NCBI GenBank assembly: GCA_014534425.1
Contig: JACVRN010000013.1
Coordinates: 1-64,000 of the forward strand
Length of the DNA stretch: 64,000 bases
Reading direction: 5' to 3'
Origin: Pyrinomonadaceae bacterium
Lineage (GTDB): Bacteria; Acidobacteriota; Blastocatellia; Pyrinomonadales; Pyrinomonadaceae
Below the pieces are notes generated by a model. It ran no database searches. It was not told the DNA's origin and saw nothing but the letters and a program-made list of their open reading frames with translations. Shown piece by piece: positions 51,203 to 60,244 of the stretch (positions are counted from its first letter, which is position 1; each line of letters begins with the position of its first letter). The position numbers and the translations under genes are program-made.

Positions 51203-51268
51203 CCGTTAAAGCCAGCCCTAAATTTTCTTCCCCCGTTCTATTTAATCAACTTGGGTTTCGGGTCAGGG

Positions 51269-54200
51269 ATGATGAAAGTGTTTCAAAGAGTAATGGGTCG
51301 TGTACTAATTATGCTGCTGGTCTTGCTGGCGCTCGGTTCTTTCAACCTGTTCGCGCAGCAGCAATCAACGGCTACGCTGCGCGGCACCGTGGCGGATGAG
51401 TTCGGAGGATTGATAGTTGGCGCGACCGTCACGGTGGCCGACGCTAGCGGCGTGCAGAAGCAGGCGACCACGGACGAGGAGGGCCGTTATACTTTCACAG
51501 GGCTTGCGCCTGGCCGCTACACTGTGAACGTGAGCGCGCCTGGCTTTGCGGCCTACGACAACGAAGGGGTGGAATTGACTGTCGGGCGCACAGACCCGCT
51601 CAACGTCACCTTACGCATAGCGGTCGAGCAGGTAGAGGTCACTGTCTCTGCGGAAGAGGCCATAAGCACAGACCCGGAAAATAACCTGGGCGCGGTCACG
51701 CTGCGCGGCACGGATTTGGACGCTTTGCCGGATGACCCTGACGATTTAACCGAAGCCTTGCAGGCTCTTGCAGGCCCTTCGGCTGGTCAGGAGGGCGGAG
51801 AGATTTTCATTGACGGCTTTTCCGGCGGGCGGCTTCCTCCGAAAGAGTCTATACGAGAGATTCGCATTAACCGTAATCCCTTCTCGGCTGAGTACGACCG
51901 GCTGGGCTACGGGCGCATAGAGATTTTCACCAAGCCCGGAACGGACAGGTTTCGCGGCCAGGGCTTCATCAACTTTAATGACGAGAGCCTGAACTCGCGT
52001 AATCCGTTTGCGCCGAACCGCGCTCCGTATCAGGTGCGACGCTACGGCGGAAACTTTAGCGGCCCCATAAGCCGGAAGCGCGCCTCTTTCTTCTTCGACG
52101 TGCAGCGCAACGAGACGGATGATAACGATGTCATCAACGCCATCATCCTAGACCCTGCGTTCAACATCGTGCCGTTTCTCTCGACCGTATTGACGCCGAG
52201 GCGAACGATTAGCTTCAGCCCGCGACTTGATTATCAAATCAACAGCACGAACACTTTGGTCGCGCGCTACACTTATCAGAAGACCGAGAGGCAGAACATG
52301 GGACTCGGGAGTGGCTTTGCGTTGCCGAGCGTGGCCTTTGACTCCGAGAGCACGCAGCAGACTTTCCAGTTGACGGAAACATCCGTCATCAACAAGAAGA
52401 TAATCAACGAGACGCGCTTTCAATATATACGCCAGCGCAGTAACCAGACGGGCGCAAACGCCCTGCCGACCATCCGAGTGCTCGAAGCCTTCACGGGCGG
52501 AGGCTCGAACGTAGGCTTCTCGTTCGATAACGAAGACCGCTTTGAGCTTTCGAATTTCACTTCATGGGCCGTGGGCACGCACGCGCTCAAAGCTGGCGGG
52601 CGGCTCAGAGTGGTGCGCGTGCTGGATGTCTCGCCGCAGAATTTCAACGGCACGTTTACGTTCGCTGGCGGCACCGCGCCGCTTCTTGATGCGAACAACC
52701 AGATTGTGCTGGATGCCCAGGGCCAGCCCGTACTGACGACCATCACGAGCATAGAGCGCTATCGCCGCACGCTCCTTTTTCAGCAGCAGGGATTCACCAA
52801 CGCGCAGATACGCGCGCTCGGCGGCGGGCCAACGCAGTTCTCCATAGCGGGCGGCGACCCCAAAGCGAGCGTCACGCAGGCGGATTTCGGCGGCTTCATA
52901 CAGGACGACTGGCGCGTGCGACCCAACTTCACGCTCTCTCTGGGATTGCGCTACGAGACGCAGAACAACGTGCATAGCTGGACGGACTTTGCCCCGCGCG
53001 TGGCTTTCGCGTGGGCACCCGGCGCAGGCGCAAACGCTCGCCAGCAGAAGACGGTGATTCGCGGCGGCTTCGGTCTCTTCTACACGCGCGTAGCTGATTC
53101 TCTGACGCTGCAAGCCAACCGCTTCAACGGCACGAACCAGCAGCAGTTCGTCGTCACGGCGAACACCGTCGGCGGCCTTGGCGTATTGAATCAGGCTACG
53201 TTCACGAACGCCGGTGTCTCGAACGTTCCGACGACCGCAGAGCTAACTGCTTTTCAGATTCCGCAGACGACACGTCAACTCTCTGGAGACCTGCGGACGC
53301 CCTACACCATGCAGACCGCTTTGAGCCTTGAGCGGCAGTTGCCGTACAACATAGGGCTGTCCGTGAACTTCATCAACACGCGAACGCTTCACGTTCTGAG
53401 GTCGCGCAACATCAACGCGCCGCTTCCCGGAAGCATCACCGTGGCGAACCCCGGAGGCGTGCGTCCCCTTGGCGACATAGGCAATATCTTTCAGTACGAG
53501 TCAACGGGCCGCTTTAACCAGAGCCAGTTGATTGTGAGCCTCAACAGCCGTTTCAGCCGCAACTACACGCTCTTTGCGACCTACACGTATAACCGTGCGC
53601 GCAGCGACACGGATGGAGCGAATACTTTCCCCGCGAACCAGTATGATTTAACGACCGAATACGGTCGCTCGTTCCAGGACATAAGGCATCGCTTCTCGAT
53701 AGTAGGTTCCATCAGTGGGCTGCCCTGGGGAATACGTCTTAACCCGTACGTCGTAGCCTACTCCGGCGTGCCCTTTAACATCACGATTGGTCGTGACATA
53801 AACGGCGACACGCTCTTTACAGAGCGGCCAGCGTTCGCCACGGATTTAACCAGGCCGAGCGTAGTCGCCACTCGCTTCGGAACCTTTGACACTAATCCCG
53901 TAGCGGGACAGGAGATTATTCCGCGCAACTTCGGACAGGGGCCAGCCTTCTTCACCACGAATCTTCGCATCAGCAAGACCTGGGGCTTCGGCGGTGAGCG
54001 TCCGCTTCAGGGCGCGGGCGCAGGCGGTCAGACCGGCGGCGGTCGCGGACAGCGCGGGGCCGGAGGCGGCGGCGGTGGCGGTCGCGGTGGCCGAGGTGGT
54101 CGCGGTGGCGGCGGCTTCGGCGGAGGAATGGGCGGCGCTGATGCAGGCGGCGGCACAGCCGAGCGCTATAACCTGACATTCTCCGTCAGCATTCAGAACA

Positions 54201-54352
54201 TCTTCAACAACGTGAACCTTGCTCCGCCGGTAGGAAACCTCTCTTCGCCGCTCTTCGGCCAATCGGTTTCCACGGCAGGACGCTACGGCTTCGGCGGCAA
54301 TCAGGCCGCAGGAAATAGAACTATAGAAGCGATGCTGCGTTTCAGCTTCTAG
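51269..54352 (+). CDS. TonB-dependent receptor with Gly-rich insert
   Basis: About 1027 residues from ATG 51269 or the next codon (TTG 51251 is an upstream option). Signal peptide (VLIMLLVLLALGSFNLFAQQ), then a CarboxypepD_reg domain (TLRGTVADEFGGLIVGATVTVAD, TGLAPGRYTVNVSAPGF), a plug-like region (AVTLRGTDLDALPDDPDDL, FIDGFSGGRLPPKESI) and a long beta-barrel ending MLRFSF. Codons near 53989-54160 encode a run of Gly/Arg before the last strands, which would form a flexible loop. Outer-membrane import driven by TonB is expected; ligand unknown. It is distinct from the receptor at 23421. Confidence 0.92.
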   Translation: MMKVFQRVMGRVLIMLLVLLALGSFNLFAQQQSTATLRGTVADEFGGLIVGATVTVADASGVQKQATTDEEGRYTFTGLAPGRYTVNVSAPGFAAYDNEGVELTVGRTDPLNVTLRIAVEQVEVTVSAEEAISTDPENNLGAVTLRGTDLDALPDDPDDLTEALQALAGPSAGQEGGEIFIDGFSGGRLPPKESIREIRINRNPFSAEYDRLGYGRIEIFTKPGTDRFRGQGFINFNDESLNSRNPFAPNRAPYQVRRYGGNFSGPISRKRASFFFDVQRNETDDNDVINAIILDPAFNIVPFLSTVLTPRRTISFSPRLDYQINSTNTLVARYTYQKTERQNMGLGSGFALPSVAFDSESTQQTFQLTETSVINKKIINETRFQYIRQRSNQTGANALPTIRVLEAFTGGGSNVGFSFDNEDRFELSNFTSWAVGTHALKAGGRLRVVRVLDVSPQNFNGTFTFAGGTAPLLDANNQIVLDAQGQPVLTTITSIERYRRTLLFQQQGFTNAQIRALGGGPTQFSIAGGDPKASVTQADFGGFIQDDWRVRPNFTLSLGLRYETQNNVHSWTDFAPRVAFAWAPGAGANARQQKTVIRGGFGLFYTRVADSLTLQANRFNGTNQQQFVVTANTVGGLGVLNQATFTNAGVSNVPTTAELTAFQIPQTTRQLSGDLRTPYTMQTALSLERQLPYNIGLSVNFINTRTLHVLRSRNINAPLPGSITVANPGGVRPLGDIGNIFQYESTGRFNQSQLIVSLNSRFSRNYTLFATYTYNRARSDTDGANTFPANQYDLTTEYGRSFQDIRHRFSIVGSISGLPWGIRLNPYVVAYSGVPFNITIGRDINGDTLFTERPAFATDLTRPSVVATRFGTFDTNPVAGQEIIPRNFGQGPAFFTTNLRISKTWGFGGERPLQGAGAGGQTGGGRGQRGAGGGGGGGRGGRGGRGGGGFGGGMGGADAGGGTAERYNLTFSVSIQNIFNNVNLAPPVGNLSSPLFGQSVSTAGRYGFGGNQAAGNRTIEAMLRFSF

Positions 54353-54361
54353 AAAACGCAG

Positions 54362-54434
54362 AAGTCAGAATGCCGCAATGATGAATGAAAAGCTTTTGGC
54401 GCTTTAATTCATCATTGTGGCATTCTGACTTTTA
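54362..54434 (+). terminator. Long hairpin terminator / inverted repeat
   Basis: 25-base arms at 54362-54386 and 54407-54431 pair with one G-T; core unit AAGTCAGAATGCC. TTT follows. It separates the receptor gene from the peptide cassette. Confidence 0.8.
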
Positions 54435-54523
54435 CCTTACCTTCTGCATTGTCTTTTCCGTCTTCTCGTACTAAGCTACAGGTCAATCGCCATCAATTCA
54501 AAAATCGCTTAGGAGGAATGGGA

Positions 54524-54871
54524 ATGTCAGAACAAGTTAATCCTGTGCCTGCGGAAGAGAGAGAGTCTCAATCGGGTCTTCTTCTATCCGTAGAGCCTTT
54601 GGAAAAGAGCGCGAAGCTCCATGCAACCGACACGGTAGACGGCGGCGCAGACTCGGACGTGACGGGCGCTGATACAGATACGACCGACCGCTCGGACTCG
54701 GACGGCACAGACCTCCTTTCGGATTCTGACGGCACGGACAGTTCGGATTCGGATGGAACCGATGCTTCGGATGCCGATGGCTCTGATTTAACAGACAAGG
54801 TCAAGGATGCGCTCGGCATGGATTCCGACCGTTCTGACACTGTCGACGCGGACGGCACAGACTCGCGTTGA
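54524..54871 (+). CDS. Asp-rich repeat peptide, candidate modified-peptide precursor
   Basis: 115 residues from ATG 54524, with AGGAGG seven bases upstream. Residues 1-35 (MSEQVNPVPAEERESQSGLL...) look like a leader: no signal peptide and mixed composition. Residues 36-115 hold 27 Asp among mostly Ser, Thr, Gly and Ala. D(S/A)DG(T/S)D occurs five times (58-63, 67-72, 75-80, 83-88, 108-113). It has no Cys. It resembles Ca2+-binding DxDxDG loops, so an acidic calcium-binding protein is an alternative. Directly downstream are a JmjC/ROX oxygenase and a 2Fe-2S protein, which together suggest a hydroxylated ribosomal peptide; that reading is inference. Confidence 0.75.
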   Translation: MSEQVNPVPAEERESQSGLLLSVEPLEKSAKLHATDTVDGGADSDVTGADTDTTDRSDSDGTDLLSDSDGTDSSDSDGTDASDADGSDLTDKVKDALGMDSDRSDTVDADGTDSR

Positions 54872-54894
54872 TTAAAGAAGAGGTAAGGCGTGGC

Positions 54895-56097
54895 ATGGCG
54901 GCTCTCTATCCTCTGGAAAAGATTTTGGAGCCATGCCGAGCGGAGGAGTTTTTTGCCTCCTACTGGGGACAGAGCTACAAGCACATAAAGGGTTGGCCGG
55001 AAAAGTTCCGGGCGCTGCTGCCTTGGCCTGAGTTGAATGAAATCCTGCGGCGGCATCGCCTGGACTTTCCACGCCTGCGCCTCATGCGCGACGGCCAGAG
55101 GGTTCCCGTCTCATCCTACATACGCCACGCCACGACGGCACGCACCAAGACTTCTATCCCAAGACTGCTGCCCGCAGAGTTAACCAAGCATTTAAGAGAA
55201 GGCGCAACGCTCGTCCTCGACGCCGTGGACGAGCTTTATCGTCCCATAGAAGAGTTGGCCGAAGGTCTTGAGTTTATCTTCCGTGAGCACGTACAGGTGA
55301 ACATGTACGCCGGTTGGCAAACCTCGCGCGGCTTTGACCTTCACTGGGACGACCACGACGTTTTCATACTACAGGTCACAGGCAGAAAGCTCTGGCGCAT
55401 CTACGGCGAGACTAGACAAGCGCCCATCACAGGCGACACTGCGGAAAAGCCTGCCGATATAGATGCCCCGCTCTGGGAAGCCATGCTCGAAGACGGCGAC
55501 CTGCTTTATATCCCGCGCGGTTGGTGGCACGTTGCGTTTCCACAGCAGGAGCCTACGCTGCACCTGACCGTGGGCATACACAACTGCACCGGGCTGGACT
55601 TGTTGAGGTGGACGGCGGATAAGCTGCGCGAGAGCGAGGAGTTTCGCCGTGACCTTCCGCGCTTCGCTTCAACCGAAGAGAAACGCGCTCATCTGGACAG
55701 GCTGCGCGCAGAGATTGTCAGGGCACTGAATGACGAAGCTCTTGAGAGTTTCTTACGCGAGCACGACGAGGCGGCCAGCCCCCGCGCTCATCTCAGTTTG
55801 CCCTGGAGCGGAACAGAGGAGATTCTGCCCGAAGCTGCGGAGGCGCGCGTGCGTTTTCTGCCCCCGCGTCCAGTGGAGATTAAAGTCGAAGGCGGGGTGA
55901 TAGAATTTTCCTGTCTTAAAAAGCGCTGGCGCTTCGCAGAGGATGCGGCGCTTCTTTTGAAGCCTCTCATGGAGCGGCGCGTCTGTTCCGTGGCGGAATT
56001 GATTGACGCTACGAGCGCCCGCTTGGACGAGAGCCGTGTGCGGCTGTTTCTGTCCGAGCTTATAGCGCACGGGATGGTCTGTGTGGTCGAAGATTAA
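54895..56097 (+). CDS. JmjC/ROX-type 2-oxoglutarate-dependent oxygenase
   Basis: 400 residues from ATG 54895, with AGAGGTAAGG upstream. A TTG at 54868, overlapping the peptide stop, adds nine codons. The cupin core has the iron triad: His150 and Asp152 in GFDLHWDDHDVF and His212 in IPRGWWHVAF. The sequence after it, QVTGRKLWRIYG, is the usual JmjC block. The C-terminal part (CSVAELIDATSARLDESRVRLFLSELIAHGM) looks like a winged helix. This is the JmjC/dimerisation/winged-helix layout of ribosomal oxygenases such as YcfD/RoxA, which hydroxylate protein residues. Substrate unknown; the Asp-rich peptide immediately upstream is the prime candidate. Confidence 0.88.
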   Translation: MAALYPLEKILEPCRAEEFFASYWGQSYKHIKGWPEKFRALLPWPELNEILRRHRLDFPRLRLMRDGQRVPVSSYIRHATTARTKTSIPRLLPAELTKHLREGATLVLDAVDELYRPIEELAEGLEFIFREHVQVNMYAGWQTSRGFDLHWDDHDVFILQVTGRKLWRIYGETRQAPITGDTAEKPADIDAPLWEAMLEDGDLLYIPRGWWHVAFPQQEPTLHLTVGIHNCTGLDLLRWTADKLRESEEFRRDLPRFASTEEKRAHLDRLRAEIVRALNDEALESFLREHDEAASPRAHLSLPWSGTEEILPEAAEARVRFLPPRPVEIKVEGGVIEFSCLKKRWRFAEDAALLLKPLMERRVCSVAELIDATSARLDESRVRLFLSELIAHGMVCVVED

Positions 56098-56102
56098 ATC
56101 AG

Positions 56103-57023
56103 ATGGTTCAGCAAGATTTTTATTGTTCTCAACTCTCGCGCAACGCCGAAGAGAATACTTTCGGCACCGCTTCGGTCGGTGAAGTGTGGCTGCTGGTGGA
56201 ATACACAGAGCCTTGGGGGATTAAGGCTCTGAACGACAGCAGCCTCTCTACGGAAGTCAAAAATTACCTGGGCCAGCTTATACGAAGAATCCCTCGCTCG
56301 CGCCTGCTTTTTATCAAACAGGAGAGGCGCAATCAAAAGCGCTTCAACTTCTTCATCGTACGTGCGCGCGAGCGCAATCCCTTCATAGTCAGGTTCGAGC
56401 TTGATGATTACGAGAAGCTGCGCGAGCACTACCTTGATGTCGCTGCGTGCGCGGCGGGCGAAAAGACTGCGGGCGGAGAAATCATCACCGAGCCGCTTTA
56501 TCTGGTCTGCACTCACGGGAAGCGAGACAAGTGCTGCGCCAAGTTCGGCTTTCCCCTTTACAAGTCTTTGAGAGAAGAGCGCGACGGGCTGGTTTGGCAA
56601 TCTTCGCACGTTGGCGGAGACCGCTTCGCGGCCAATCTCCTGTGCTTCCCGCACGGCCTCTTCTACGCACACATGACGGAAGAGAGCGCGCGTACGGTTG
56701 TTGCGCGCTACGAAGGGCAGCAGATTGTGCTGGATAAATTTCGTGGCCGCGCCTGTTACTCTTATCCGGTTCAGGCTGCAGAGTTCTTCATACGCAGGGA
56801 GACGGGACGGACTGGCATAAATGAGTTGCGCGGCTTGAGCAGCGAGCGCGTGGAGGACGACGCCTGGCGCGTGCGCTTCGGCACACGGGACGCCAGGGAG
56901 ATTCACGAGGTCGTCATACGACGCCGCCATTCCGATTTTCACAACTACATCACTTGCAGCGACGTTGAGCGAAAACAGGTCGTACAGTTTTTCATGGAAG
57001 ATTACAATGTGTCTAAGGTCTGA
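56103..57023 (+). CDS. Sucrase/ferredoxin-like [2Fe-2S] protein
   Basis: 306 residues, thioredoxin-like ferredoxin family (sucrase/ferredoxin-like, related to yeast Apd1). Motifs VCTHGKRDKCCAKFG and SSHVGGDRFAANLLCFPHG are diagnostic. In Apd1 the cluster is held by two Cys nine positions apart and two His four apart. Here Cys136/Cys145 and His169 match, but Asp173 replaces the second His. Cys144 and Cys181 are extra candidates. The gene starts five bases after the oxygenase stop, so they are co-translated. It may deliver electrons to keep the oxygenase iron reduced or act on the peptide; both are inference. Confidence 0.88.
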   Translation: MVQQDFYCSQLSRNAEENTFGTASVGEVWLLVEYTEPWGIKALNDSSLSTEVKNYLGQLIRRIPRSRLLFIKQERRNQKRFNFFIVRARERNPFIVRFELDDYEKLREHYLDVAACAAGEKTAGGEIITEPLYLVCTHGKRDKCCAKFGFPLYKSLREERDGLVWQSSHVGGDRFAANLLCFPHGLFYAHMTEESARTVVARYEGQQIVLDKFRGRACYSYPVQAAEFFIRRETGRTGINELRGLSSERVEDDAWRVRFGTRDAREIHEVVIRRRHSDFHNYITCSDVERKQVVQFFMEDYNVSKV

Positions 57024-57046
57024 AAGTTGCGGTCAGCATAATGGTT

Positions 57047-57069
57047 GTAGGGGCGGGGCTTGTCCCTAC
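57047..57069. repeat. Palindromic repeat family A, degenerate copy
   Basis: GTAGGGG, then CGGGGCTTGT, then CCCTAC: shortened and with a changed middle, just past the sucrase/ferredoxin-like gene. Confidence 0.7.
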
Positions 57070-57087
57070 GATTTATCTCAAAATAAA

Positions 57088-57131
57088 AGGGGCTTACGGG
57101 GCCTGGCGACTCCGTAAGCTCCTTTCTTTTT
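57088..57131 (+). terminator. Rho-independent terminator after the peptide cassette
   Basis: AGGGGCTTACGG pairs with CCGTAAGCTCCT (one G-T), followed by TTCTTTTT. It would end the three-gene transcript begun near 54500. Confidence 0.85.
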
Positions 57132-57330
57132 CCGTCTTCAGGCTTTAGATGGTGATTCCATCTTTGGAGGGACTGCAAAATTAAACCCTTCCGGCTCCTG
57201 AGTCGGTACGGTACAGAACAAAAAAGGCTTTTTCTTAGCGGCGCGGCTCAGGAATCTTTATTCTTTCGCTACATCTTTGCGAACCAATTTGAAAATCATA
57301 AGAGCTTTAGTGATAAGAGGGGCAAAGTTT

Positions 57331-57504
57331 ATGAGCAAGCATAAAAGGGCAGGGGATGAGAAGGCGGAAGTGGGCAAGTCGGGCGCTCCGCCTAGCGGCA
57401 CGGAGAACGAGAAGGCCGTGGACGAAAAGGAAGAGAGCAGGAGCGTGCCGAAAGTTAGTAAAAAGGATGTCGGCGAAGGCTCTCGCGGCGGCGGGCTGCA
57501 CTGA
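57331..57504 (+). CDS. Small charged disordered protein
   Basis: 57 residues from ATG 57331 (MSKHKRAGDEKAEVGKSG) with GAGGGG upstream. Almost all residues are Lys, Glu, Asp, Ser, Gly or Arg; no hydrophobic core. The end is Gly-rich (GSRGGGLH). No family was recognised. It sits 52 bases before another small hydrophilic gene, and two more lie at 59808-60244, suggesting a shared stress or nucleic-acid role; this is a guess. Confidence 0.55.
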   Translation: MSKHKRAGDEKAEVGKSGAPPSGTENEKAVDEKEESRSVPKVSKKDVGEGSRGGGLH

Positions 57505-57556
57505 AGCTTCGCGCCTGAACTTTCAAAATTGAAAAAGGGTATGGAGGAGAAGAGTA

Positions 57557-57745
57557 ATGTCAGAGAAGAAGCGGCAGAAAAAGGACGGCCAGCGAAAAGA
57601 TAAACAGAACCAGGCGATGCGCGAGGCTGTGAATGAAAGAAAGCAGGCCGACCCGACGGAGGGCGTGAGCAATGCTACCAATCTGTCGGAGTCTGGAGAG
57701 GGCGCAACCGACCGCGCGCGGGGCGCTGGCGGCGAGCGTCAATAA
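57557..57745 (+). CDS. Small basic disordered protein
   Basis: 62 residues from ATG 57557, with GGAGG about ten bases before it. The first half is Lys/Arg/Gln-rich (SEKKRQKKDGQRKDKQNQ), the second half Ser/Gly/Ala-rich. No hydrophobic core and no known motif. Co-transcription with the gene at 57331 is likely. Confidence 0.6.
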   Translation: MSEKKRQKKDGQRKDKQNQAMREAVNERKQADPTEGVSNATNLSESGEGATDRARGAGGERQ

Positions 57746-59807: not shown

Positions 59808-60044
59808 TCAGCCGCTAGCGTTGGGTGTGCTGCCAGTGTTGCCGCCCTGCTTTGAGCTATCCGTGCCGCCTCCCTGTCTGGAGACGTTCGCGCCGCCCGC
59901 ATCATTGGCGGGTTCTGTCTCGGTCGGCTCCACATCGCCCGCGTACTGGTTATCCGCGAACGAAGAAGCATCCTTCGGTTTGTCGCGCAGCACGCCCTGC
60001 ATAGTCTCCTGATTGCCCGCGCCTTTATTCTGACTATCAGCCAT
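59808..60044 (-). CDS. Small Gly/Asn-rich disordered protein
   Basis: 78 residues from ATG 60044 (MADSQNKGAGNQETMQ); an upstream ATG at 60062 overlaps the previous stop (TAATG), but GGAGGGG is placed for the inner start. Composition is Gly, Asn, Ser, Thr, Asp and Gln; the KDASSFADNQYAGDVEPTE stretch is the most protein-like. No known family. It is probably co-transcribed with the gene at 60062-60244. Confidence 0.55.
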   Translation of the reverse strand: MADSQNKGAGNQETMQGVLRDKPKDASSFADNQYAGDVEPTETEPANDAGGANVSRQGGGTDSSKQGGNTGSTPNASG

Positions 60045-60061
60045 CTCTAGTTTCCCCTCCA

Positions 60062-60244
60062 TTAACTGTGACGTTCGCCGCCGGGCGTGCCGCTCTTTTT
60101 ACCACTGCCTTCGCCCTTGTTAGTGCTGCCAGCGCCTTCGCTCCTGCTGCCGGAGTCGCCGCGCTTGCCTTCGCCGCCCTTCTGGCGCGTCCCGCCCGAA
60201 TGACCGCTCCCGCCCTGCTTGTTGCTTTCGCTATCTGCGCCCAT
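60062..60244 (-). CDS. Small Gly/Ser/Lys-rich disordered protein
   Basis: 60 residues from ATG 60244 with GGGGGAG upstream. Nearly all Gly, Ser, Lys, Glu and Arg (GGTRQKGGEGKRGDSGSRSE). It resembles small stress-type KGG proteins in composition only. Its stop overlaps an ATG in the next gene. Confidence 0.55.
   Translation of the reverse strand: MGADSESNKQGGSGHSGGTRQKGGEGKRGDSGSRSEGAGSTNKGEGSGKKSGTPGGERHS

Follow-up and report, generated by a model that had tools for sequence, protein, structure and literature searches.

An Asp-rich repeat peptide, a JmjC_2 oxygenase, and a [2Fe-2S] protein form a probable RiPP-like peptide-modification cassette in Pyrinomonadaceae

In biphenomycin biosynthesis, RiPP precursors are substrates of JmjC/cupin hydroxylases (PMC12707348, PMC12257519). 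The enzymes BipG and PbsQ of biphenomycin-type RiPPs are JmjC-type Fe(II)/2-oxoglutarate (2OG) enzymes that are encoded beside a small precursor and hydroxylate its side chain, which is what we propose for the locus described here. They differ in that they act on arginase-made ornithine in MNIO/B12-radical-SAM (rSAM) clusters, whereas the present cassette contains no MNIO (DUF692), arginase, rSAM, or TldD and has an Asp-rich, multirepeat core. Bufferins are ribosomal peptides that chelate copper via Cys-derived ligands, whereas carboxylate and hydroxyl ligands are proposed here. They are MNIO-made metallophores (PMC12452194), and the likeness, proposed as an analogy only, lies in a ribosomal peptide that an iron oxygenase alters for metal binding; the bufferin enzyme is an MNIO, not a JmjC protein, and an SF (sucrase/ferredoxin-like) protein is not known to take part. 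Since the enzyme here belongs to PF08007, the cassette is not an MNIO-metallophore locus. PF08007 proteins with RRE-like folds have been noted in RiPP-like contexts (PMC12710340); that report briefly mentions ~30% identical bacterial homologues of fish and algal proteins, and we found neither an Asp-repeat precursor nor an SF partner described in it.

The window analyzed here is a stretch of 64,000 nucleotides from a Pyrinomonadaceae bacterium, an acidobacterium from soil. On its forward strand, a repeat peptide, a JmjC_2/ROX-type oxygenase, and an SF protein form a tight three-gene unit between two strong hairpins. The initial annotation had described this trio (a 115-amino-acid [aa] peptide, a JmjC/ROX oxygenase, and an SF-like protein) and its boundaries, and open reading frames (ORFs), profiles, and folds bear the description out. 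The upstream hairpin (54366 to 54427), which carries a TTTT tail and would terminate the preceding gene or bound the cassette, has a 21-bp outer stem and a folding energy of −38.7 kcal/mol versus −12.4 ± 2.5 in shuffles (z = −10.4). A Shine-Dalgarno (SD) sequence, AGGAGG (54511 to 54516), lies 7 nt 5′ of the peptide ATG, and a G-rich SD-like sequence is present in most homologues. The genes for the peptide (54524 to 54871), the oxygenase (400 aa; 54895 to 56097), and the SF protein (306 aa; 56103 to 57023) follow, and a rho-independent terminator of 16 pairs plus a T tail (57086 to 57125) closes the cassette. The oxygenase had been placed "24 bases later" than the peptide, which is correct as the offset from stop to start; the intergenic gap is 23 nt, and 5 nt separate the oxygenase and SF genes. 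A promoter search gave no sigma-70-like match, and an Rfam search of positions 54300 to 57300 gave no match, so an RNA element is not supported. In the host genome, which is ~90% complete, these are the sole PF08007 and PF06999 genes found.

The peptide resembles a precursor, with a leader of about residues 1 to 34 and an Asp-rich core of about residues 35 to 115. The core holds five D-x-D-G-[TS]-D units, at residues 58, 67, 75, 83, and 108 (54695 to 54865). Together, 16 homologous peptides contain 66 such units, whereas shuffles that preserve composition average 1.9 (maximum, 8); thus, the repeats are not due to chance. Repeat units identical in protein sequence carry differing codons, and dN/dS for the peptide gene is 0.2 to 0.4, like that of the enzyme genes. 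The peptides are under purifying selection. The leader motif SGLLLSVEPL (residues 17 to 26; 54572 to 54601) is conserved (shared among the peptides as SGLLLSVDPL), with S17, G18, L19, S22, and P25 invariant in 13 homologues, and the 13 to 16 homologues combine this invariant SGL..S..P leader with a variable Asp-repeat core. Of 7,389 small ORFs scanned, 19 carry a motif of this class, which is common to Acidobacteriota and two actinobacteria, and 14 of the 19 lie directly upstream of an oxygenase. Searches against Pfam and NCBIfam up to an E value of 1 returned no match for the peptide, and EF-hand or another known repeat family was rejected on this ground. At position 5 of the repeat (DG?D), 83 of 99 cases have T or S, whereas S, A, G, and T interchange freely at position 2. 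This strict position 5 leaves Thr/Ser as a possible target, and Asp-rich tracts bind Ca2+ unmodified; both points count against the reading that we favor below.

The oxygenase matches PF08007 (E = 1.8e-28), and its predicted fold is a double-stranded beta-helix with an HxD...H triad whose ligands (H150, D152, and H212) are invariant in 24 sequences, as in JmjC_2/ROX-type enzymes. Its closest solved relative is human NO66, which is also the best Foldseek match (E = 1.9e-24) of the AlphaFold model (mean pLDDT, 84.7). NO66, MINA53, and RoxA (YcfD) have the fold, the metal-binding triad, and a C-terminal winged helix in common with this oxygenase; they are 21 to 22% identical to it, and the type found here is set apart by its constant place in a peptide-SF cassette. 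In the model, the C-terminal domain (55846 to 56088) comprises strands 330 to 332, 335 to 340, and 343 to 348 and helices 349 to 360, 366 to 373, and 379 to 391, with a pLDDT of about 73 to 88 over residues 330 to 391. Under the RRE definition of PMC12710340, this winged-helix/RRE-like domain is a candidate leader-binding domain, and it probably serves in that way. Because NO66 and MINA53 also have a C-terminal winged helix, and the winged helices of ROX proteins are placed as this domain is, this feature is not proof of leader binding. In a tree that was built without NO66 and MINA53, the oxygenase groups with other peptide-linked JmjC proteins, and Escherichia coli RoxA lies far outside on a very long branch.

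The SF protein matches PF06999 (E = 8.5e-24), and its model (pLDDT, 86.2) has as top Foldseek hits the Aquifex thioredoxin-like [2Fe-2S] ferredoxin (1m2b and 1f37; E = 0.015 and 0.041; probability, 1.00), so that profile and predicted model both place it among PF06999 proteins with a thioredoxin-like ferredoxin fold. A sequence search of PDB chains with the SF profile gave no match. It shares this family, fold, and a Cys-x8-Cys pair with a downstream His with Apd1/Aim32-type and bacterial SF proteins. The Apd1 site is 2Cys2His (PMC11126956), whereas in SF proteins of the Asp-peptide family the second His is replaced by Asp (HxGGDRF). The probable cluster ligands are C136, C145, H169, and D173; with Asp173 at the fourth position in nearly all aligned rows, the site is a variant of the Apd1 type with a putative [2Fe-2S] cluster. 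Five of eight sampled plasmid loci with SF relatives are siderophore, iron-transport, or NRPS loci; the siderophore-locus homologues are <30% identical to the SF protein of the window, and three of the eight have no iron link, both points that weigh against the reading favored below. A Nonomuraea SF protein (37% identity) was rejected as a cassette member, having no JmjC gene beside it.

Conserved co-occurrence of the oxygenase, the repeat ORF, and the SF gene, which the initial annotation had put forward as the check on its proposal, was found across the family. The oxygenase gene is sporadic, being absent from most relatives, but where it occurs in the family it is always in the cassette: it is present in 17 of 119 Pyrinomonadaceae genomes, with the SF gene directly downstream in all 17 and an Asp-rich repeat peptide directly upstream in 16 (a contig end truncates two of these). 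The 17th contig breaks off within the oxygenase gene, and a matching peptide is present at the end of another contig. One genome without the oxygenase (G001) is detected by the peptide profile, and there the contig stops within the core. A repeat cluster in another (G050, L058) seemed to be an exception without an oxygenase and proved to be a short tandem repeat with a broken frame rather than a precursor. Genus g8 has a divergent trio (43% and 37% identity), which the peptide pattern revealed without recourse to the enzyme search. No neighbor other than the three genes is conserved around the trio, and the unit therefore moves as three genes. Among these neighbors there is no conserved protease, exporter, or immunity gene; the lack of a conserved protease or exporter for leader removal and product destination also counts against our favored reading, although such functions may lie elsewhere in the genome or be dispensable.

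Beyond the family, two genomes of Phenylobacterium (Alphaproteobacteria) also carry the trio, at 33 to 36% identity. A Nostoc plasmid carries the oxygenase and SF genes behind two short ORFs with acidic tails; the cores there are Gly/Glu-rich, and the SF protein keeps His-x3-His. On Streptomyces linear plasmids, a related oxygenase is found with 43- to 49-aa ORFs bearing the core SDGGGTG[KR]SDGND and with an aldo/keto reductase, and one alphaproteobacterium has a similar set. JmjC_2 genes fetched from elsewhere in Acidobacteriota and from Caulobacteraceae had no Asp-peptide and no SF gene beside them; the Asp-rich matches near those genes were Tat-signal lipoprotein-like tails on the opposite strand.

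The gene organization is, read from the sequence, RiPP-like in its anatomy. We consider it probable that the locus is a RiPP-like peptide-modification cassette in which the oxygenase binds the leader and oxidizes the Asp-rich core, the product then being handled by the SF protein. The first gene would supply the precursor, and the JmjC_2 enzyme, probably through its C-terminal domain, would bind the leader and oxidize core residues using Fe(II), O2, and 2-oxoglutarate. That the peptide is the substrate is very likely, and co-conservation of the trio supports the earlier proposal of a dedicated modification unit acting on it. The core consists almost entirely of D, G, S, T, and A, which makes Asp beta-hydroxylation plausible. 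Asp is also its most frequent and most invariant residue, with hardly any His, Arg, or Asn present, so that beta-hydroxyaspartate (at the Asp Cβ) would be the likeliest product at the repeated positions; whether Asp is in fact the modified residue we judge to be evenly balanced. Several beta-hydroxyaspartates in a chain, with Asp carboxylates beside them, would make a strong ligand for hard metals such as Fe3+, and the [2Fe-2S] SF protein would then most likely act on the product as a ferric reductase, releasing or reloading iron. Iron as the purpose of the cassette is a tentative suggestion. The initial annotation had the Fe-S protein supplying electrons to the oxygenase. This role is disfavored because 2OG oxygenases need no external reductase for turnover; an aldo/keto reductase takes the place of the SF protein beside a related JmjC enzyme and SF relatives often sit in siderophore loci, pointing to another redox role, and on the latter ground reduction of peptide-bound iron is the likelier function.

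Alternatively, the oxygenase may modify the peptide while the SF protein is a redox partner or second maturation enzyme, either re-reducing Fe(III) in the oxygenase or reducing or oxidizing a hydroxylated intermediate, with a signaling or antimicrobial product rather than an iron ligand. The strict adjacency of the SF gene to the oxygenase gene fits this, as does the aldo/keto reductase that occupies the second-enzyme position in the cassettes from Streptomyces and the alphaproteobacterium, suggesting that the core undergoes redox chemistry in two steps. We nevertheless regard it as rather unlikely, given turnover of 2OG oxygenases without an external reductase, the lack of a conserved exporter or immunity gene, and the length of the Asp-rich cores, which would be unusual for antimicrobials. 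Hydroxylation could also fall on Thr/Ser (or Gly), with Asp as recognition context only and the product perhaps rearranged further (e.g., to a carbonyl or cross-link). The T/S preference at position 5 beside a freely varying position 2 speaks for such a target, and 2OG-oxygenase macrocyclization in RiPPs, as announced in the title of one report (cited in PMC12710340), offers a precedent; however, the cores from actinobacteria retain SDG/SDGND and have just one Thr, the Nostoc cores differ as described above, and Asp beta-hydroxylation has solid precedent among RiPPs (PMC13060819), making this reading unlikely.

The peptide might instead be an unmodified acidic protein binding Ca2+ or another metal, merely coregulated with an oxygenase and SF protein that act elsewhere (e.g., on a ribosomal protein). 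The ribosomal-oxygenase type of fold (NO66/MINA53/RoxA) and the general resemblance of DxDG motifs to Ca2+-binding loops would accord with this, but gene adjacency and order are strict across phyla despite different flanks, the peptide has an invariant leader motif and no family match, and related oxygenases in other phyla have quite dissimilar short ORFs as partners, a pattern more in keeping with a substrate than with a coregulated bystander. Absence of the gene from most relatives is likewise unlike a housekeeping modification, and we consider this explanation very improbable. An ordinary ribosomal oxygenase, considered because NO66 is the best structural match, was rejected in view of the gene context, the sporadic distribution, and the tree. 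The same evidence (the oxygenase is sporadic, always in the cassette, and groups with peptide-linked JmjC proteins) speaks against the alternative offered in the initial annotation, an acidic peptide lying by chance beside an unrelated ribosomal oxygenase.

Among the open papers that our literature search covered, none described Asp-repeat precursors together with JmjC and SF proteins. If the peptide is the substrate, the cassette would be a clear and simple case (one precursor, a JmjC oxygenase, and an Fe-S protein) of ribosomal-oxygenase-type enzymes as peptide tailors, connecting folds like those of human NO66/MINA53 with peptide natural products, and the oxygenase would be a multisite Asp (or Thr/Ser) hydroxylase that a short leader directs. 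Relatives that can be tested include one in a named strain, Phenylobacterium deserti YIM 73061, and the plasmid-borne ones in Streptomyces. A broader picture, in which JmjC_2-made ribosomal peptides are widespread (Acidobacteriota, Alphaproteobacteria, Actinomycetota, and Cyanobacteriota) and one branch, equipped with a [2Fe-2S] ferric reductase of its own, converts Asp-rich repeat precursors into poly-beta-hydroxyaspartate ligands for iron, is doubtful at present; such ligands, if real, would amount to a ribosomally encoded siderophore-like or iron-storage peptide. Should the product bind iron, uncultured soil bacteria would possess a ribosomal equivalent of the beta-hydroxyaspartate siderophores.

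The genes that the initial annotation read as a candidate peptide-modification system lie where it placed them: an Asp-repeat peptide gene (54524-54871; 115 aa), a JmjC_2 (ROX-type) oxygenase gene (54895-56097; 400 aa) after a gap of 23 nt, and a sucrase/ferredoxin-like (SF) protein gene (56103-57023; 306 aa) after a further 5 nt. As also described there, two hairpins bound this trio, one on the 5' side with a 21-bp outer stem (54366-54427; z = -10.4) and a 16-pair terminator on the 3' side (57086-57125). The oxygenase matched PF08007 (E = 1.8e-28) and the SF protein PF06999 (E = 8.5e-24), each the one such gene found in the source assembly (~90% complete); the window peptide had zero matches in Pfam or NCBIfam. 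A large TonB-dependent/Oar-like receptor, identified by eye, lies 5' of the cassette (51251-54352), across the strong 5' hairpin, and is not a conserved neighbour of the trio elsewhere. Also nearby are several small low-complexity ORFs of very hydrophilic composition, Lys/Glu-rich on the + strand (57332-57745) and Gly/Ser/Asp-rich on the - strand (59808-60244); they are possibly stress-type disordered proteins.

Recurrence of the trio in other genomes, the check proposed in the initial annotation, was borne out. We searched 97 and then 119 Pyrinomonadaceae genomes with an oxygenase profile, which separated a specific clade (>500 bits) from other JmjC_2 genes (<170 bits). This clade was present in 17/119 genomes; an SF gene lay directly 3' of the oxygenase in all 17, and an Asp-rich DxDG(T/S)D peptide lay directly 5' in 16, including two that are partly truncated at contig ends. 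The oxygenase of the seventeenth genome is cut off by a contig end; this genome has a matching peptide at the terminus of a different contig. In the opposite direction, a peptide profile matched 16 genomes, only one of which lacked the oxygenase; its contig ends in the peptide core. One full trio (43% and 37% identity) was found from its peptide DNA pattern before its enzyme, and the leader of this peptide differs from those of other members. When all ORFs from 15 loci were clustered, only the trio genes were common to nearly all loci; flanking genes were common to close relatives only, and the remaining multi-locus groups were out-of-frame ORFs over trio genes. Further JmjC_2 genes retrieved from 396 Acidobacteriota genomes adjoined neither peptide nor SF gene, and the same was true of those from 249 Phenylobacterium-family genomes, except for complete trios in two Phenylobacterium genomes.

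The peptide is a selected protein composed of a leader and a core. Its gene has a pairwise dN/dS of 0.2-0.4, similar to the enzyme genes, and repeat units of the window peptide that are identical in protein differ in codons. An SGLLLSVDPL-type N-terminal motif is common to 13 homologues (invariant S17, G18, L19, S22, and P25). Asp makes up 33% of the core, Gly 19%, and Ser/Ala/Thr together 35%; aromatic, Cys, His, Arg, and Asn residues are almost absent. The D-[SAGT]-D-G-[TS]-D unit occurs 66 times, versus 1.9 in shuffled cores; repeat position 5 is T/S in 83/99 cases, and position 2 is unconstrained among small residues. One locus (L028, 4106-4941) carries two tandem Asp-rich precursors, whose leaders are nearly identical and whose cores have diverged, before one oxygenase.

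The HxD...H triad is invariant in 24 oxygenase sequences, and the AlphaFold model of the oxygenase (pLDDT 84.7) matches NO66, MINA53, and RoxA along almost its entire length. PF08007 proteins with RRE-like domains, and bacterial homologues in contexts resembling those of ribosomally synthesised, post-translationally modified peptides (RiPPs), have been noted (PMC12710340). Human ROX enzymes also align across the C-terminal RRE-like winged helix, the candidate leader-binding region; thus, the fold alone is no proof of leader binding. In our tree, the Asp-peptide oxygenases form one group in 54% of bootstraps, without strong support, and the sequences are compatible with a single origin; actinobacterial oxygenases lie near this group, and Escherichia coli RoxA falls outside on a very long branch.

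Oxygenase relatives in other phyla are repeatedly preceded by a short ORF. On all seven Streptomyces linear plasmids examined (L170, L171, L172, L175, L176, L177, and L179, including pSV2 and pSglau1), this ORF ends in SDGGGTG[KR]SDGND or a variant; it is annotated as 43-49 aa in six, and in L177 we read it from a frame that carries no annotation. The plasmid JmjC_2 "cupin" is 37-41% identical to the window enzyme and in 6/7 is followed by an aldo/keto reductase plus an additional protein that is uncharacterised (about 270-285 aa). This conserved plasmid cassette looks like an undescribed RiPP-like family. A similar cassette in a 1.6-Mb alphaproteobacterial genome (L140, reverse-complement strand) encodes a peptide ending SDGGGGRSDNNDCG, a JmjC_2 oxygenase, and a third protein resembling an aldo/keto reductase. 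On Nostoc sp. C057 plasmid p057_I (L178, 3018-5677), two related 43-46-aa ORFs (QPKFTKxxW/RPKFTKQTW, with acidic, Gly/Glu/Asp-rich tails) precede a JmjC_2 oxygenase (27% identity) and an annotated sucrase ferredoxin (29%); transposases lie downstream. Mini-ORFs 5' of the oxygenase in two Pseudonocardiaceae share the leader motif class (LIFEIDPIE and LLVEIDPVE). This class occurs in 19/7389 small ORFs, 14 of them directly 5' of an oxygenase, a count that is partly post hoc since we had seen the two Pseudonocardiaceae ORFs before defining the motif. On the 7.9-kb mobilizable E. coli plasmid pEC16II (L174, 3620-6830), genes for an ABC transporter and a 227-aa hypothetical protein immediately precede a JmjC_2 "cupin" gene, RiPP/microcin-like in arrangement; 25 Escherichia plasmid records match.

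The sole high-probability match to the SF model (pLDDT 86.2) was the Aquifex thioredoxin-like [2Fe-2S] ferredoxin. C136, C145, and H169 are conserved. The Apd1 site is 2Cys2His (PMC11126956), with His in the fourth position, where the Asp-peptide family has Asp173; His-x3-His is kept in the Nostoc relative. Among eight SF relatives sampled on plasmids, five (Leptolyngbya, Picosynechococcus, Deinococcus ficus, Gloeocapsopsis, and Gloeothece) adjoin iron-siderophore transporters, TonB siderophore receptors, or NRPS/MbtH genes, and three have no siderophore, iron-transport, or NRPS/MbtH neighbours. Such sucrase-ferredoxin genes are part of loci for siderophore synthesis/uptake (L183, L184, L185, L186, and L187), alongside NRPS, TonB-receptor, and iron-siderophore ABC-transporter genes; in L187, from a Gloeothece citriformis PCC 7424 plasmid (470-5845), the gene is beside a cupin-like protein. 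This setting suggests a ferric-siderophore reductase role for some bacterial PF06999 proteins.

Collectively, the trio is a real, conserved, RiPP-like peptide modification cassette, a combination that none of the open papers searched reports. We call it RiPP-like rather than a proven RiPP because core modification is predicted and the cassette includes no conserved function for removing the leader. Going by cassette anatomy, the peptide would be the precursor and the oxygenase the tailoring enzyme. Proof that JmjC/cupin enzymes can hydroxylate RiPPs comes from biphenomycin pathways (PMC12257519, PMC12707348), and RiPP Asp beta-hydroxylation is known with other enzymes (PMC13060819). The core composition limits the target residue to Asp, Thr, Ser, Gly, or Ala, and we predict that Asp is most likely the modified residue. 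The presence of SF relatives in siderophore/NRPS loci suggests that the SF protein reduces chelated iron and, with that, raises the tentative guess that the modified peptide may be an iron ligand.
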